From Cognatishimia sp. 1_MG-2023 (lineage in GTDB: Bacteria; Pseudomonadota; Alphaproteobacteria; Rhodobacterales; Rhodobacteraceae): a DNA stretch of 64,000 nt. The stretch lies in NCBI RefSeq assembly GCF_030548175.1, contig NZ_JAUORX010000007.1, positions 1-64,000 on the forward strand, given 5' to 3'. Made by a program: the position numbers and the translations under genes. How positions within the stretch are numbered: position 1 is the first letter of the stretch; every line of letters begins with the position of its first letter. Under the pieces are notes generated by a model. That model did no database searches, had not been told where the DNA came from, and saw nothing but the letters and a program-made list of their open reading frames with translations. Positions 46,529-51,540 of this stretch are shown in pieces.

Positions 46529-46649
46529 GCGCCTTTTCCTTTCTCAAAACACCAGAAGGCCCCGAACGGTATGCTTAGGGTCACCTTTTAATCTGGTGGA
46601 AGACATTCACACACACGAATCCCGTCGCCGGGAATCCGTGAGATACGCG

Positions 46650-46678
46650 TCTATAGGTGGGGCATGCTTCTAGGGCAA
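46650..46678 (-). promoter_or_regulatory. Sigma70-type promoter of the rpmC-rpmD block
   Basis: On the minus strand TTGCCC (46673-46678), 17 bases, TATAGA (46650-46655). Leader of about 115 bases before rpmC. Same -10 sequence as the rpmH promoter in this window. Confidence 0.7.
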
Positions 46679-46729
46679 GCGAAAGATTCAATTTTCTCGC
46701 AAAAAACGCAATAAAACTTAGGCTATTCG

Positions 46730-47413
46730 TTATCCGCCAAACACCCGATCCTGAAACCAAATCAGGCTCGGGTATGCACAGAGCCAAATCCAGAAAAAGC
46801 GGTTCAATCCGAACAGGCAGGCATTCGCCAGATGGAAAGTCGCCGCGATGGCCATTCCGATCCATAGGGCAACTGGGTGCAGTAAGGCCAAGGGGAAGAT
46901 CACCTCGAACCCCATCACACTCCAGCTCATCAGCCATAGCAACCGTGGGCGCGCGGCCCAGCTGCGCAGGCTCTCAGAGACTGGATAGGCCGAAAAGCGG
47001 AACACATCGACCAGCGCTCTGCCTGAGCGCCACTCGGGGTTCACGATTTTCACATAGCCCGACACGAAATAGGACAGCACCAGTTGCACCGCCAAATAGG
47101 CCATCGCCAACTCCTGCCACTGCCCCGGAGGCGCAAGGTGCGCCGCCATCAGGCAGGTGGTGATCAGCATCGTCATTTTATCCGCGCCGCCATTATATGG
47201 CCCGTTGAAGCGATGCAGATAGACCAAGCCGGTCAACCAAAGCGTCACAACCGCCCCGTCGCTATGCCAACCGGTTAACATCCAAAGACACGCAAGGATG
47301 CGCACGCCAAACAGCGCGCGGTCGCGACCTCCTAGGAAATGCTCGACTGATTGCTGTAGAACGGCCAAGGCCAGCATGATTTCGGTCAGGCGAATGATGG
47401 CGTCCAAACTCAT
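46730..47413 (-). CDS. HTTM-like multi-pass membrane protein
   Basis: 227 residues with about five to six hydrophobic segments. The motif RFNGPYNGGADKMT and the following helix, then GYVKIVNPEWRSGRAL, resemble HTTM/vitamin K-dependent carboxylase-like membrane proteins. Carboxylase activity is not supported; bacterial HTTM proteins have unknown roles. It overlaps by four bases the 139-residue gene before it, so the two are coupled. The pair lies in the ribosomal gap between rplP and rpmC. Confidence 0.7.
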   Translation of the reverse strand: MSLDAIIRLTEIMLALAVLQQSVEHFLGGRDRALFGVRILACLWMLTGWHSDGAVVTLWLTGLVYLHRFNGPYNGGADKMTMLITTCLMAAHLAPPGQWQELAMAYLAVQLVLSYFVSGYVKIVNPEWRSGRALVDVFRFSAYPVSESLRSWAARPRLLWLMSWSVMGFEVIFPLALLHPVALWIGMAIAATFHLANACLFGLNRFFWIWLCAYPSLIWFQDRVFGG

Positions 47414-47829
47414 AGCGTCACCTCGGCCAAGGACACCGGAGTGCTTTCATACAAGACCTCACCCACGATCTGATCCCCTTCGGGCACGAGGAACATTAGG
47501 CGAAACTGCAAGTCTCCTGCCTGCCCTACTAGTCGTTCCGCGATCATCCGGTTCAACTCGCCTACCGAATGATCCACAACGCCGGACACCAGCCGCTCGG
47601 ATAAGGACACCATATACAGCTGCGTATTACGTTCAGGGTTCCAGACCATACGCCGCGCCATCTGGCCAAGCGACACCCGTTCGGGGATTGGATGGCTTTC
47701 TTGCCACGCCCCCTCTTTTCCTTGGACAATTAAGCGATACTCCACCCGAGGCGACGGGCCAACGGTTTTGAAAAAGCGCCAACTGGGAAAGAGCACAGGC
47801 AAAAGCAAAGACACGGTTTTTAACAACAT
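47410..47829 (-). CDS. Partner protein of the HTTM-like gene, unrecognised
   Basis: 139 residues. A hydrophobic N-terminal segment (1-15, possible signal anchor) is followed by a soluble beta-rich part with no motif I can name. The stop overlaps the HTTM-like start (ATGA), implying a stoichiometric partner. The only functional hint is that coupling and the likely periplasmic location. The AT content is similar to the neighbours, so recent transfer is not evident. Confidence 0.7.
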   Translation of the reverse strand: MLLKTVSLLLPVLFPSWRFFKTVGPSPRVEYRLIVQGKEGAWQESHPIPERVSLGQMARRMVWNPERNTQLYMVSLSERLVSGVVDHSVGELNRMIAERLVGQAGDLQFRLMFLVPEGDQIVGEVLYESTPVSLAEVTL

Positions 47830-47901
47830 GCTTCACATGTAGCCGGTGCGGTTTTCAAAAAGGTTTCTGAAATGCGAAAATCAACGAACTGCGGAATTTT
47901 G

Positions 47902-48117
47902 TCAGGAATTCAAGTAGCCCGCCGTCAGCGAGATAAACGCGCCGACATGCACCAGCATAATGGCGCGGTCTTTCCACATGACGCCAACCGCGAACCACAG
48001 AAGAATGCCGATGATGAAAAAGAAAACGTTCCATGGAACAATGTTCAAACCTGTCAGCCCATAGCCCACCAACTGAATAGCCGTAGCAATCCACTTAACG
48101 ATGTCGACGGTTTTCAT
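47902..48117 (-). CDS. Small membrane protein of unknown function
   Basis: 71 residues with two hydrophobic segments (about 8-28 and 33-68) that could form three helices; MKTVDIVKWIATAIQLVGYG at the N-terminus. The ATG at 48117 has AGGGGAAG upstream, a strong ribosome-binding site; the longer frame to 48207 is unlikely. No function assigned. It is divergent from the 2OG oxygenase gene. Confidence 0.75.
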   Translation of the reverse strand: MKTVDIVKWIATAIQLVGYGLTGLNIVPWNVFFFIIGILLWFAVGVMWKDRAIMLVHVGAFISLTAGYLNS

Positions 48118-48247
48118 ACGCTTCCCCTTTGGCACAGAGGACGATGTTAACTGAATTTCAATCGCGCTCATCCAAAAAAACGCCAGATCATTCGTTATTT
48201 TCGCCACAAGGCTCGCGCTTTGGAAACGGCTCAGCTAACACAGGATT

Positions 48248-48868
48248 ATGTCCCAGATTGAATCGCTCTTCGTGACCCGCCTGTATCGTGCTGCTTTGTC
48301 AGAATTCGGCCCCGCTGTTGATGCGGCCGAGATGGAAAACTCTTGCCTTGTGATTGCGCAAGATGATGAGGCCGGCCAGGAATGGTGTGAAGAACACGAT
48401 TTTCCGGGCTACACCTCTTATGCGTCTTTGACGGACCTGCCGTGGCGCTTTCCGATCTTTGCTGATCTGGTAAAGTCATTGGATGAACACGTCGCGGCTT
48501 TTGCCAAAGATTTGGATTTCAATCTTGATGGCCGCAAATTGGTTCTCGAAGATCTGTGGATCAACATCCTGCCCGAAGGCGGCAGCCATTCGGCCCATAT
48601 CCATCCGCATTCAGTGATCAGCGGCACAACCTACGTCGCGATGCCTGAAGGCGCGAGTGCGCTCAAGCTCGAGGACCCACGCCACGCAATGATGATGGCC
48701 GCCCCACCCCGTATCAAAGACGCCCGCCGCGAGATGCAGAACTTTATCTACGTCAAACCAGATGTGGGTGACGTGCTGCTTTGGGAAAGCTGGCTACGCC
48801 ACGAAGTTCCTATGAACATGTCTGAAGACGACCGGATTTCGGTGAGCTTTAATTACCGGTGGGAATAG
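48248..48868 (+). CDS. TIGR02466-type 2OG-Fe(II) oxygenase
   Basis: 206 residues. The C-terminal jelly-roll has the putative iron ligands in HSAHIHPHSVISGTTYV and LRHEVPMNMSEDDRISVSFNYRW, with the Arg likely contacting 2-oxoglutarate. This putative oxygenase family has unknown substrates and is common in marine bacteria. Single gene with 130-base and 193-base flanks. Confidence 0.85.
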   Translation: MSQIESLFVTRLYRAALSEFGPAVDAAEMENSCLVIAQDDEAGQEWCEEHDFPGYTSYASLTDLPWRFPIFADLVKSLDEHVAAFAKDLDFNLDGRKLVLEDLWINILPEGGSHSAHIHPHSVISGTTYVAMPEGASALKLEDPRHAMMMAAPPRIKDARREMQNFIYVKPDVGDVLLWESWLRHEVPMNMSEDDRISVSFNYRWE

Positions 48869-49061
48869 CGCCGCCTGGGATTTGGTGAGCGCTCCTTGCC
48901 CAGCGTAGTTCTTTCAGCACATATTGCTTACCAAAATCTGACACGGAATACGTGTTTCGGAAATGAAACAGTACCGCATTTCATGCAGCTTCATCTTGCC
49001 ATTCAGAGTGTATTAACGAATAAGAAGCGCATTCGAAGCCAAGCACAAATTTAGGTACAAT

Positions 49062-49700
49062 ATGAAACTAGTTCCCCTAACTGTCATTCTCTCTCTGCCT
49101 ATTTTGGGTGCATGTGGCCCAACCGGCTTCGCATCCTCAGCAACTGCATCGCGAGTTGCGCCAGCCTCAGGCGGAACGGTCAATCTAAGCCTTAGCAGTG
49201 AATCTAACCGTTCTGTTAGCCGTGCAGGCGTTGGTACAGTTGCTTACGTTTCTGGTACCGACGTAGACCGTGGCCAAATCGTCGCCGCAGCAGGAATTTC
49301 TGGCACACCAAATGTCGGAGCGGCTCGCACCTCTGGCAGCGGCACCTACACAACGCGATATCAATATGTCGTGGTCGACAATATCACCAGAACAGATACG
49401 CTGATCTCTGGAACGCGCGGCGAGGAAGCGGGTACAATGAGCTTGGCTGCCGATTTCGATGCTGGCACACTAACTGGCTCCACAAGTGAGTTAACCGTGA
49501 ACGGTACAATTTCAGGCTCCGATGTCGGCGGCAACGTAACTGCAAACTACTCGGGTAGCGTTTTGGGCGGCGGCACAATTTCAGGCAGCGTTAATGGAGA
49601 GCTAGCAGGTGATATTGGAACAAACGGCGTAATCGCCACGTTCCATGGATCTGATAATAATACAGTCATGGCAGGAGGGCTTGTAGGGTCTGCAGATTAA
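49062..49700 (+). CDS. Surface lipoprotein with TbpB-like barrel, probable Slam substrate
   Basis: 212 residues. The lipobox LGAC places the lipidated Cys at 18. A Ser/Gly-rich stretch (about 20-120) precedes a C-terminal beta-rich domain (125-212) with SLAADFDAGTLTGS, TANYSGSVLGGGTISGSVNG and GVIATFHGSDNNTVMAGGLVGS. This pattern is that of the transferrin-binding-protein-like barrel found in Slam-dependent surface lipoproteins such as TbpB, HpuA and fHbp relatives. A Slam gene follows 35 bases downstream in the same direction. Only one barrel and no large handle domain are present, so the ligand cannot be inferred. The upstream gap (48869-49061) has a 6-bp inverted repeat GAAATG/CATTTC at 48960-48982 and an ACACG/CGTGT stem near 48944. 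Confidence 0.78.
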   Translation: MKLVPLTVILSLPILGACGPTGFASSATASRVAPASGGTVNLSLSSESNRSVSRAGVGTVAYVSGTDVDRGQIVAAAGISGTPNVGAARTSGSGTYTTRYQYVVVDNITRTDTLISGTRGEEAGTMSLAADFDAGTLTGSTSELTVNGTISGSDVGGNVTANYSGSVLGGGTISGSVNGELAGDIGTNGVIATFHGSDNNTVMAGGLVGSAD

Positions 49701-49735
49701 GTCGCCCCACTAGGCTAAATAATCATGGCATTTGA

Positions 49736-51028
49736 ATGAAACATAAATCCCTTCGATTGACCTTAACAGCCATGGCATTCGCCATGGCTGTTCCCGTTTT
49801 TGCCTCTGAAGAAAGCCCTACGTTAGAAAGCCGTCTAGCAAGCCTAATCAACGTTGGACAGATTGATGAGGCACGCTCACTTCTCGAGACGTCCCCTCAT
49901 GAAAAGGCAGATCGCCTATTACTCGAAGGACGTATTCACAAGGTTGAAGGGCGCTTCGCGCTTGCCTCCGACATACTAGAAAAGGCACTTCGTTTACGTC
50001 CATCGGATATTACCATCCGCAGAGAGCTAGCGCATACGCAATACCTGACTGGACAACTCGGTCGGGCGAAATTTCATTTAGAGCGCCTACAGCGAGATGA
50101 CTCCTCGCCCATACTACAAAAAAGTTATGCAGGGTTTCTTACAAAAATTTACCAAGAACGCCCGCTTTCATTCCAGGCAAATATTACACTTGAACCCTCA
50201 ACGAATCTTACCAGAGGCACATCGGCAACTGTGCTGGCAACAGCCGGAGCGGATATAGCGATTTCAGAAGAATCGAGATCTCAATCAGGTGTGGGACTAC
50301 AGGTTGGTCTTGGTGCAAACTACAACGCATTTGCCTCGCCAAATCAGCGCCTCAGCTTCGGTCTGGAAGTTCGCGAATTGCGGTACAGTGTTAAGAATGA
50401 TCTGGGGTATACAGGCACGGAGATCAGTCTACGATACGACCTACGACAGGGCCGCACACGGCTAAGCCTTCAGCCATACATGCGCCTCCAAGACCGGAAC
50501 GATGGCCTGCGCACGACATCGCAGGGGTTACGTCTGAATTCAGATTTCACGCTGTCTAAGCGAAGCCTATTGCTTGCAGAAACAAGCGTGGAACACCAGA
50601 AGTTTCGCGATGCATCTCAAAGGAATGGCTGGTCTGCATCCGGTAATCTAGGCGTGAAATTTCAAGCAACGAAACGCACACGCATGACATTCGGTATCGC
50701 ATTAGAAAGCAACAAAACGAATTTACCGCATCATCGTTACAGCGGAACCGGGATTTTTGCGTCTATCGACAGCTCTCTTTCAACAGGCTTGAACCTGTCC
50801 GCGAAGCTCAGTTTGGGCCAGCGCGATTTTAGCGACGAGTTCCCTTTACTTGGATACGCAAGACACGACGAGTTTGCGCAAGTGACGGTTAGCGCTTGGA
50901 GTCCGCGCTGGCACATTGTGGGCTTCAGCCCGACTGTTAGCTGTAGCCACGTAATCAATACATCCAATGTTACCCTATACGACTACCAAGCAACCGGATG
51001 CCAAATCGGATTCTCCCGGAACTTTTAG
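49736..51028 (+). CDS. Slam-family outer-membrane lipoprotein translocator
   Basis: 430 residues. Signal peptide 1-23, then a TPR-rich periplasmic domain (25-140, with repeats such as LLEGRIHKVEGRFALASDILEKAL and TGQLGRAKFHLERL), then a C-terminal DUF560-type beta barrel (145-430) ending CQIGFSRNF with a terminal Phe. This is the architecture of surface lipoprotein assembly modulators (type XI secretion), which carry lipoproteins across the outer membrane. The adjacent lipoprotein with a TbpB-like barrel is the expected substrate. Located in the rplP-rpmC gap. The Shine-Dalgarno is weak; translation could depend on the upstream gene. It shares a terminator with rplP. Confidence 0.82.
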   Translation: MKHKSLRLTLTAMAFAMAVPVFASEESPTLESRLASLINVGQIDEARSLLETSPHEKADRLLLEGRIHKVEGRFALASDILEKALRLRPSDITIRRELAHTQYLTGQLGRAKFHLERLQRDDSSPILQKSYAGFLTKIYQERPLSFQANITLEPSTNLTRGTSATVLATAGADIAISEESRSQSGVGLQVGLGANYNAFASPNQRLSFGLEVRELRYSVKNDLGYTGTEISLRYDLRQGRTRLSLQPYMRLQDRNDGLRTTSQGLRLNSDFTLSKRSLLLAETSVEHQKFRDASQRNGWSASGNLGVKFQATKRTRMTFGIALESNKTNLPHHRYSGTGIFASIDSSLSTGLNLSAKLSLGQRDFSDEFPLLGYARHDEFAQVTVSAWSPRWHIVGFSPTVSCSHVINTSNVTLYDYQATGCQIGFSRNF

Positions 51029-51057
51029 TCAGCTGCGTCTTTACTCAAAACAAAAAA

Positions 51058-51083
51058 GCCCCCGCCGCATTCGCGCCGGGGGC
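51058..51083. terminator. Bidirectional terminator, Slam gene / rplP
   Basis: AAAAAAGCCCCCG, GC-rich loop, CGGGGGCTTT. On the minus strand followed by TTTTTT, ending the rplB-rplP block; on the plus strand weak (TTTCATT). Confidence 0.87.
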
Positions 51084-51095
51084 TTTCATTATTTC

Positions 51096-51119
51096 GTAGG
51101 GTGCGCGGTTAAGCGCACC
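51096..51119. repeat. REP-like unit GTAGGGTGCGC
   Basis: GTAG, then GGTGCGC-GGTTAA-GCGCACC. Same design as the three units at 58063-58190, in opposite orientation. It lies directly after the rplP stop. Confidence 0.6.
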
Positions 51120-51126
51120 GAAACGT

Positions 51127-51540
51127 TTACCAGTCTTCGCGAACAACAACGCGGGTTTTCACCGGCAGTTTCATCGCAGCCAAACGTAGCGCTTCACGTG
51201 CGATATCTTCGGCAACGCCGTCGATTTCAAACATGATGCGACCAGGCTTAACTTTGCAGGCCCAATAATCCACGGAACCTTTACCTTTACCCATACGAAC
51301 TTCGACAGGCTTAGAGGTAACAGGCAGATCCGGGAAAATACGGATCCAAACACGACCCTGACGTTTCATGTGACGAGTCATCGCACGACGAGCCGCCTCA
51401 ATCTGACGTGCAGTGACACGTTCTGGCTGAAGTGATTTCAGACCAAAGGAACCGAAGTTCAGAGTGGAGCCACCCTTTGCATCGCCTTTGATCCGGCCTT
51501 TGTGGGCCTTACGAAATTTAGTACGCTTTGGTTGAAGCAT
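51127..51540 (-). CDS. rplP: 50S ribosomal protein L16
   Basis: 137 residues, [19 protein letters not shown]... with [27 protein letters not shown]. Contacts the A-site tRNA region. Last gene of the rplB-rplP block; rpmC normally follows but lies 4.6 kb away. Confidence 0.97.

Follow-up and report, generated by a model that had tools for sequence, protein, structure and literature searches.

A predicted type XI secretion cassette with a small TbpB-like lipoprotein beside rplP in Cognatishimia sp. 1_MG-2023

Two genes in the genome of Cognatishimia sp. 1_MG-2023, a presumably marine alphaproteobacterium, lie in the gap between the ribosomal protein genes rplP and rpmC, within the first 64,000 nucleotides of contig NZ_JAUORX010000007.1 (this whole stretch is the window analyzed here). 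The first encodes a small lipoprotein and the second a protein related to Slam, the outer-membrane translocon of type XI secretion systems (T11SSs). Do the two genes form a working secretion unit, and does their place among ribosomal genes carry any meaning? We find that the pair is, with high probability, a self-contained Slam cassette displaying a small lipoprotein of TbpB fold, a reading drawn from sequence comparison and structure models; the ribosomal setting appears incidental. Other loci and genomes are cited by our own L and G numbers, G000 being the genome studied here. The features discussed first are the following.

49062-49700, plus strand: predicted Slam cargo, a putative small surface lipoprotein of 212 amino acids (aa) (open reading frame (ORF), profiles, AlphaFold2, Foldseek); parts: signal peptide, residues 1-17; lipid-bearing Cys18 (by motif); disordered tether, about 19-46; handle strands, 48-80; barrel, 93-211
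49338-49694, plus strand: predicted TbpB-like eight-strand barrel of the lipoprotein, residues 93-211 (strands in the AlphaFold2 model)
49736-51028, plus strand: predicted Slam (type XI secretion) outer-membrane translocon, 430 aa (PF04575, AlphaFold2, Foldseek)
49823-50158, plus strand: predicted periplasmic tetratricopeptide repeat (TPR) domain of Slam, residues 30-141 (TPR_19, model helices)
50165-51022, plus strand: predicted 14-strand membrane barrel of Slam, residues 144-429 (AlphaFold2 strand list)

The downstream gene encodes a predicted Slam-type translocon

Both reading frames were found where the initial annotation had placed them, on the plus strand and 35 nt apart, with the lipoprotein gene upstream. 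The same annotation described the 430-aa protein as TPRs followed by an outer-membrane barrel of the DUF560 type, and profile searches bear this out: PF04575 (SlipAM, formerly DUF560) scores 81.5 bits against a cut-off of 22, and 82.9 bits in the genome search, while TPR_19 (37.3 bits, cut-off 25) and TPR_14 (26.1 bits) both exceed their cut-offs. The AlphaFold2 model, built on 19 sequences (predicted local distance difference test (pLDDT) 89.4), shows TPR helices at residues 30-141 and 14 long membrane strands at 144-429, with block-mean pLDDT of 86-98 in the strands and two extra 3-residue strands within a loop. This is the 14-strand barrel on which the initial annotation had staked its proposal. 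Among solved structures, the top Foldseek matches include OmpG and CymA, the nearest barrels and both 14-strand porins, together with BcsC and PelB; no Slam structure is among the 50 matches listed. In a search of PDB sequences with the Slam alignment, the best 60 of 119 matches fall in the TPR region.

The BcsC and PelB matches, together with a 32.7-bit score for NCBIfam EpsL, could suggest instead a TPR-barrel polysaccharide exporter of the EpsL/PelB/BcsC kind, the lipoprotein being an unrelated or accessory periplasmic protein. However, the EpsL cut-off of 275 bits is missed whereas that of Slam is passed, the model has 14 long strands where the barrels of BcsC and PelB have 16, and the partner lipoprotein has a TbpB fold. 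Furthermore, no polysaccharide gene was recognized between 46.0 and 54.8 kb, where six proteins were assigned by Pfam and the rest by eye. We thus regard an exporter as highly improbable.

The signal-peptide codons of the Slam gene contain a hairpin with a 12-bp stem, a 4-nt loop and a T-rich tail behind it (49765-49792). Its z-score is -3.2, and none of 200 shuffled sequences reached equal stability. In G003, another hairpin, of 10 bp, occupies roughly this position in the Slam gene, and nine other Slam genes are unremarkable (z between -1.7 and 1.8). The 49765-49792 hairpin might lower the output of Slam relative to its cargo.

The upstream gene encodes a small lipoprotein of predicted TbpB-like fold

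The 212-aa protein starts with a positive charge, a hydrophobic stretch and the lipobox LGAC (residues 15-18), followed by a Ser/Ala/Gly-rich stretch and a Gly-rich domain. Glycine makes up 17% of the whole protein, and the lipobox protein with a Gly-rich domain announced by the initial annotation is thus confirmed. Cys18 is invariant in all eight aligned sequences, namely this protein and seven Slam-paired relatives. In the AlphaFold2 model, the C-terminal part forms an eight-strand barrel (strands 93-111, 114-131, 136-140, 144-151, 154-166, 172-185, 189-197 and 202-211), preceded by three putative handle strands at 48-80 (block-mean pLDDT 48-76 on a five-sequence alignment) and by disorder before residue 47. 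The top Foldseek match is TbpB (4qq1, E 2e-5, TM-score 0.44 on the query), and the best 26 PDB matches (E 2e-5 to 1.3e-2) are all TbpB (intact, C-lobe or in complexes), HpuA or hemophilin, one of them being titled merely 'Surface Lipoprotein'. The first unrelated match is Ail, at E 2e-2. A PDB sequence search with the lipoprotein alignment gave no match up to E 10. Residues 80-205 align with positions 47-152 of the 154-position NCBIfam slam_lipo model (NF041636). The proposed TbpB-like barrel is therefore upheld by the predicted fold and not by the curated profile scores given below.

The initial annotation saw an oddity in the size of the substrate; this view does not hold, since single-lobe Slam cargo such as HpuA, fHbp and hemophilin is known (PMC8406197, PMC5449769) and the slam_lipo model itself spans only 154 positions.

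Hemophilin structures among the Foldseek matches raise a further alternative, in which the protein would be a cargo that captures metal or haem and is set free instead of staying anchored, as with the hemophilins of TXISS-1B; some cargo of the marine cluster 3 T11SSs has also been likened to the haemophilin-like 1 architecture (PMC12282271). The clear lipobox with its invariant Cys18 argues against release, as does the lack of any recognized receptor or haem gene nearby, and a released cargo appears improbable to us.

A putative route to the surface

If the pair works as a cassette, Sec would export the lipoprotein, a lipid would be attached at Cys18 and the protein would then pass to the outer membrane, as its lipobox and general lipoprotein biology suggest. 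By analogy, a chaperone of the Skp/OmpH type may keep it unfolded in the periplasm: Slam is described as a translocon that needs Skp (PMC9090332), and an OmpH/Skp homologue is encoded in the same genome (33.9 bits, cut-off 32.4). The TPR domain of the adjacent Slam would then receive the lipoprotein and hand it over to the 14-strand barrel for passage to the cell surface. The C-terminal eight-strand barrel, which is the shared part of Slam cargo (PMC5449769), would fold outside while the lipid keeps the protein anchored.

The initial annotation noted the lack of a receptor partner, and indeed no TonB receptor was recognized in the 46.0-54.8 kb interval. For this reason our guess is that the lipoprotein contacts a small environmental ligand or a surface, and not a host protein.

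The two genes recur together

Own-genome searches with PF04575 (E up to 1e-3) returned two genes. The second Slam gene (L057:4478-5605) also has a lipobox protein encoded just upstream (L057:3732-4454), and a whole-genome scan with PF01298 (TbpB_B_D) at E up to 10 gave two matches alone, of 16.4 and 16.3 bits, which are the two Slam-adjacent lipoproteins. Within the genus, PF04575 is found in three of nine genomes and the 212-aa lipoprotein in two. The other bearer, G003, has the same pair at the same place beside rplP, with a lipoprotein 73% identical. At the family level, PF04575 matches at E up to 1e-3 in 145 of 394 genomes, a draw from a larger group, and exceeds its cut-off in 134. Among named organisms, the 18 closest Slam relatives come mainly from the Rhodobacteraceae sensu lato, such as Pelagimonas, Actibacterium, Shimia, Celeribacter and Palleronia; Erythrobacter and Neomegalonema are also represented.

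The initial annotation had called for the co-occurrence of the two genes to be checked in related genomes. In 25 of 34 loci, a lipobox ORF on the same strand ends no more than 400 nt ahead of the Slam domain, versus 5 of 199 control genes (Fisher p 2e-21, odds ratio 108). The 34 loci, five from the genus and 29 from the family, are those with the best PF04575 scores and a locus given, not a random draw; lipoboxes were found with a home-made pattern, not SignalP, and the controls were taken from 29 long loci with the longest ORFs as stand-ins for genes. Pairing thus recurs, and none of the nine upstream lipobox partners scanned reached the PF01298 cut-off.

Around the pair itself, a promoter scan was uninformative (5 found, 4.0 expected), and no operator clearly shared by the upstream regions of G000 and G003 was seen by eye. 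In another locus (L068:5222-5915), two short frames (97 and 118 aa) that precede the cargo gene match the lipoprotein profile and look like a broken or partial tandem copy of it.

Points against the cassette, and relatives that stand alone

Several observations weigh against this reading. Lipid anchoring was judged by motif alone. The lipoprotein remains below the cut-offs of both curated profiles, with 15.4 bits (E 0.028, cut-off 26) for PF01298 and 21.4 bits (E 2.5e-4, cut-off 80) for slam_lipo; by the latter model it is no slam_lipo member. Its AlphaFold2 model (pLDDT 72.3) was built on five sequences and has low confidence before residue 47. Across the best 26 Foldseek matches, query TM-scores are modest, at 0.34-0.50, and root-mean-square deviations large (5.9-12.6 A), so that the resemblance to TbpB, HpuA and hemophilin is one of topology. 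The loose PF01298 threshold that singled out the two Slam-adjacent lipoproteins also gives weak matches in 3 of 14 control genomes, none over cut-off. Nine of the 34 Slam loci have no partner found: six show none in the stretch examined and the other three (L008, L010 and L026) are truncated at a stretch or contig edge, although L008 and L010 do show a partner on reading. Finally, among the loci given, 40 distinct relatives of the lipoprotein (L081-L134) have no Slam gene in flanks of about 1.5 kb.

These last relatives deserve attention. The lipoprotein profiles detect relatives in 23 of the 394 genomes searched for the family and in 23 of the 390 searched for the order, the own genome being counted in each. 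Of the 40 that stand alone, 38 carry a lipobox-like motif by a loose pattern, and a single genome can hold several of the 40. Since so many are encoded away from a Slam gene, adjacency is not obligatory. Some relatives seemed at first sight to occur in genomes devoid of Slam, as seven of the 23 relative-bearing genomes have no PF04575 match (G014 is listed as empty, and the absence in G161, G237, G257, G338, G373 and G377 was deduced from their absence among the matches). We dropped this idea: with other profiles, divergent TPR-barrel genes are found in four of the seven (G014, G161, G237 and G257) and partial matches in two more (G377 and G338), G373 having a TPR-only match. Several host genomes therefore carry divergent T11SS-like genes that PF04575 misses, and the stand-alone relatives may be T11SS cargo too.

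The 40 relatives, and the six Slam loci among 34 that have no adjacent lipoprotein, could also be taken to mean that the lipoprotein stays in the periplasm, that Slam serves cargo encoded elsewhere and that the two genes are adjacent for assembly, quality control or a similar reason. Several facts speak against such an arrangement: the own genome holds no PF01298-like match beyond the two pairs, a second species carries the pair at the corresponding site and, as just described, the stand-alone relatives may themselves have channels to serve them. A periplasmic lipoprotein seems to us about as improbable as a released one, and we retain the Slam cassette as the preferred reading.

The site between rplP and rpmC

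The initial annotation left the position of the pair in the ribosomal cluster unexplained. The pair abuts rplP (51127-51540, minus strand), is convergent with it and thus runs against the ribosomal operon. Four genes separate the pair from rpmC: a 2-oxoglutarate (2OG) oxygenase gene, a DUF6552 gene, orf139 and an HTTM gene. One further feature lies between Slam and rplP:

51055-51086, no strand assigned: inverted repeat with 14-nt arms (93% complementary) and a 4-nt loop, a possible terminator for Slam and/or rplP

This repeat was not picked up by a consensus terminator scan.

Comparison of genomes shows the gap to be ordinary. None of the nine genus genomes has rplP and rpmC side by side, the S10 ribosomal cluster being split at this point (here by 46529-51126), and the contents of the gap vary: the 2OG oxygenase is present in nine, HTTM and orf139 in seven, and the lipoprotein-Slam pair in two. 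Between rplP and the oxygenase gene, five of the nine genomes have a LysE-type gene (by Pfam in G003, by eye in the others), some have an ion channel, flavodoxin or OsmC gene, and three hold just 116-263 bp. In the wider family, a search of 61 genomes gave 56 other genomes with an rplP match, of which we read 29 loci. There, rpmC lies apart from rplP in 25 of the 29, and the oxygenase was found in 15; rpmC was not found within 1.5 kb in 23 loci, the gap is 958 or 1125 in two, and 97-253 in four. Given this recurrent gap and its shifting contents, we rejected a meaningful ribosomal link of the pair. The gap is a lasting, variable insertion spot with a convergent insert, and has no ribosomal function.

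Slam clades and kinds of cargo

We built a tree of 53 Slam-like proteins by a quick method, with support from the Shimodaira-Hasegawa-like approximate likelihood ratio test (SH-aLRT) alone, and labeled cargo kinds by hand from the partner genes. Cargo kinds follow Slam clades, with 13 label changes against a mean of 35.8 after shuffling. In the whole-length tree, the Slam of 49736-51028 groups with that of G003 (97%), within a set of four (95%), each paired with a TbpB-like protein of 206-268 aa. Other branches hold the loci that score weakly on PF04575.

A second kind of pair is seen in the genus (L057:3732-5605 on contig 1 of the own genome, L055:4374-6300 and L056:5281-7049; the genomes are the own one, G008 and G003), with a short TPR region and an acidic lipoprotein of 203-259 aa. 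The Slams of this kind (L002, L004 and L005) form one clade with L027 at 100% support.

A marine cluster 3 locus has been described with ThyX, glyoxalase and DUF1194 neighbors and a cargo of 282-375 aa (PMC12282271). In our set, L148 has ThyX (Thy1), DUF1194 and a TbpB_B_D lipoprotein over cut-off, and lies in a branch apart from the Slam of 49736-51028, which therefore differs in branch from the published locus. Loci of this ThyX/DUF1194 type (L148, L151 and L190) have weak PF04575 scores; the first two fall in another branch, and L190 is unplaced. The neighbors of the pair studied here are not those of the cluster 3 locus but ribosomal genes, the 2OG oxygenase, DUF6552 and HTTM. At L190:4019-7609, in G014, the order is ThyX, lipoprotein, T11SS gene and DUF1194 (ThyX and DUF1194 by eye), and the T11SS gene scores 16.9 bits on PF04575. 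Despite this gene, G014 appears empty by PF04575 at E 1e-3; the Pfam model therefore misses divergent T11SS channels.

A conserved cargo and a divergent translocon barrel

Between G000 and G003, identity is 74% for the mature lipoprotein, 51% for the TPR domain of Slam and 30% for its barrel. In the other 27 comparisons the identities of cargo and barrel are nearer, the next widest difference being that of L020 and L075 (61 versus 37%). For cargo of pathogens, which is under immune pressure, the opposite of a cargo more constrained than its channel would be expected. The low barrel identity may reflect either replacement of the barrel or fast drift.

We also considered whether G000 and G003 had recently exchanged the cargo gene, which is not supported: agreement at four-fold sites is no better than chance in both pair genes (0.25 and 0.28). 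In neighboring genes it ranges from 0.27 to 0.67, with 0.42 for both the oxygenase and HTTM. As the pair is more diverged at these sites than the oxygenase and HTTM genes, it may have arrived separately in the two genomes. Coevolution of the cargo with the TPR domain was likewise examined and not retained. Over eight pairs (28 comparisons), the Pearson correlation of the surface lipoprotein (SLP) is 0.63 with the TPR domain and 0.54 with the barrel; without the G000-G003 pair, Spearman values of 0.55 (SLP-TPR) and 0.62 (SLP-barrel) do not discriminate between the two. The p-values are not independent, because the comparisons share members.

We may speculate further, at a level that we consider unlikely as a whole. 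The lipoprotein would be a T11SS cargo pared down to a barrel on a lipid tether, with hardly any handle, and the barrel and its loops would be the working part. A cargo kept constant (74%) while the translocon barrel drifts to 30% would point to the TPR domain as the site of cargo recognition, and the stand-alone relatives would make up a large, unrecognized group of surface lipoproteins for which divergent channels, missed by PF04575, act in trans.

Known systems and significance

The pair resembles Slam1-TbpB/HpuA and other Slam systems of Neisseria, Haemophilus, Moraxella and Pasteurella in its translocon, a TPR domain plus a PF04575 barrel (PMC5449769, PMC9090332, PMC12080921), in a lipidated cargo (here by motif) with a C-terminal eight-strand barrel, and in that the genes are often adjacent. 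Unlike the pathogen cargo, the lipoprotein is of small size and its predicted handle has three strands rather than 5-6, and the gene order is cargo-Slam here versus slam-pmSLP in Pasteurella (PMC12080921). The pair also differs from the pathogen systems in having no recognized receptor beside it and no known animal-host context. With hemophilin/HphA, a cluster 1B cargo (Foldseek matches 8gm3 and 7rea), the lipoprotein shares a single TbpB-like barrel and a similar length; however, cluster 1B cargo is almost all soluble with a signal peptidase I (SPI) signal (PMC8406197), whereas a lipobox is present here. Like the slam_lipo family, it is predicted to be a small surface lipoprotein dependent on Slam.

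The initial annotation rightly held that Slam is best known from animal pathogens; Slam-type channels of marine Rhodobacteraceae are already in print (PMC12282271). This study was the only one that our literature search returned for DUF560 in Roseobacter, and a search for surface lipoprotein assembly in Rhodobacter returned none, subscription literature being mostly outside both searches. The pair is like the marine cluster 3 T11SSs (Roseobacteraceae/Rhodobacteraceae) in its bacterial group and in combining a T11SS channel with a lipidated barrel cargo (PMC12282271). This 2025 survey of T11SS cargo reports a TbpB barrel domain beside only 8 of 145 marine cluster 3 channels and leaves open what these carry; at one shared marine locus, 10 of 11 strains have a barrel lipoprotein. 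The figures of 8/145 and 25/34 do not contradict each other directly, since published cluster 3 and our 34 loci are different sets. Because 25 of the 34 loci have an upstream lipobox gene and none of the nine partners scanned reaches the PF01298 cut-off, some marine T11SS cargo may have been missed through low sequence similarity, rather than being absent.

The pair is in all likelihood a real T11SS cassette and for the most part an expected member of a known secretion system, with frequent pairing among relatives. Such two-gene cassettes bear on the roles of surface lipoproteins outside pathogens and on the question of which Slam domain picks the cargo.

A TPR-barrel-like gene beside a CAP-domain gene

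A divergent TPR-barrel-like protein is encoded beside a CAP-domain protein at L187:4327-6394 (own genome, contig 17), L188:3405-5493, L192 and L193, that is, in four genomes (G000, G003, G148 and G302). PF04575 scores are 15.5 and 13.7 bits, below cut-off. A lipobox is seen in the CAP protein of L187 and L188, and the neighbors of the locus, read by eye, differ between G000 and G003. This is a possible T11SS pair with a non-barrel cargo; a literature search for T11SSs with a CAP domain found none. The wider family of the divergent TPR-barrel protein is present in 137 of 295 genomes, with a CAP gene in 3 of the 30 loci given.

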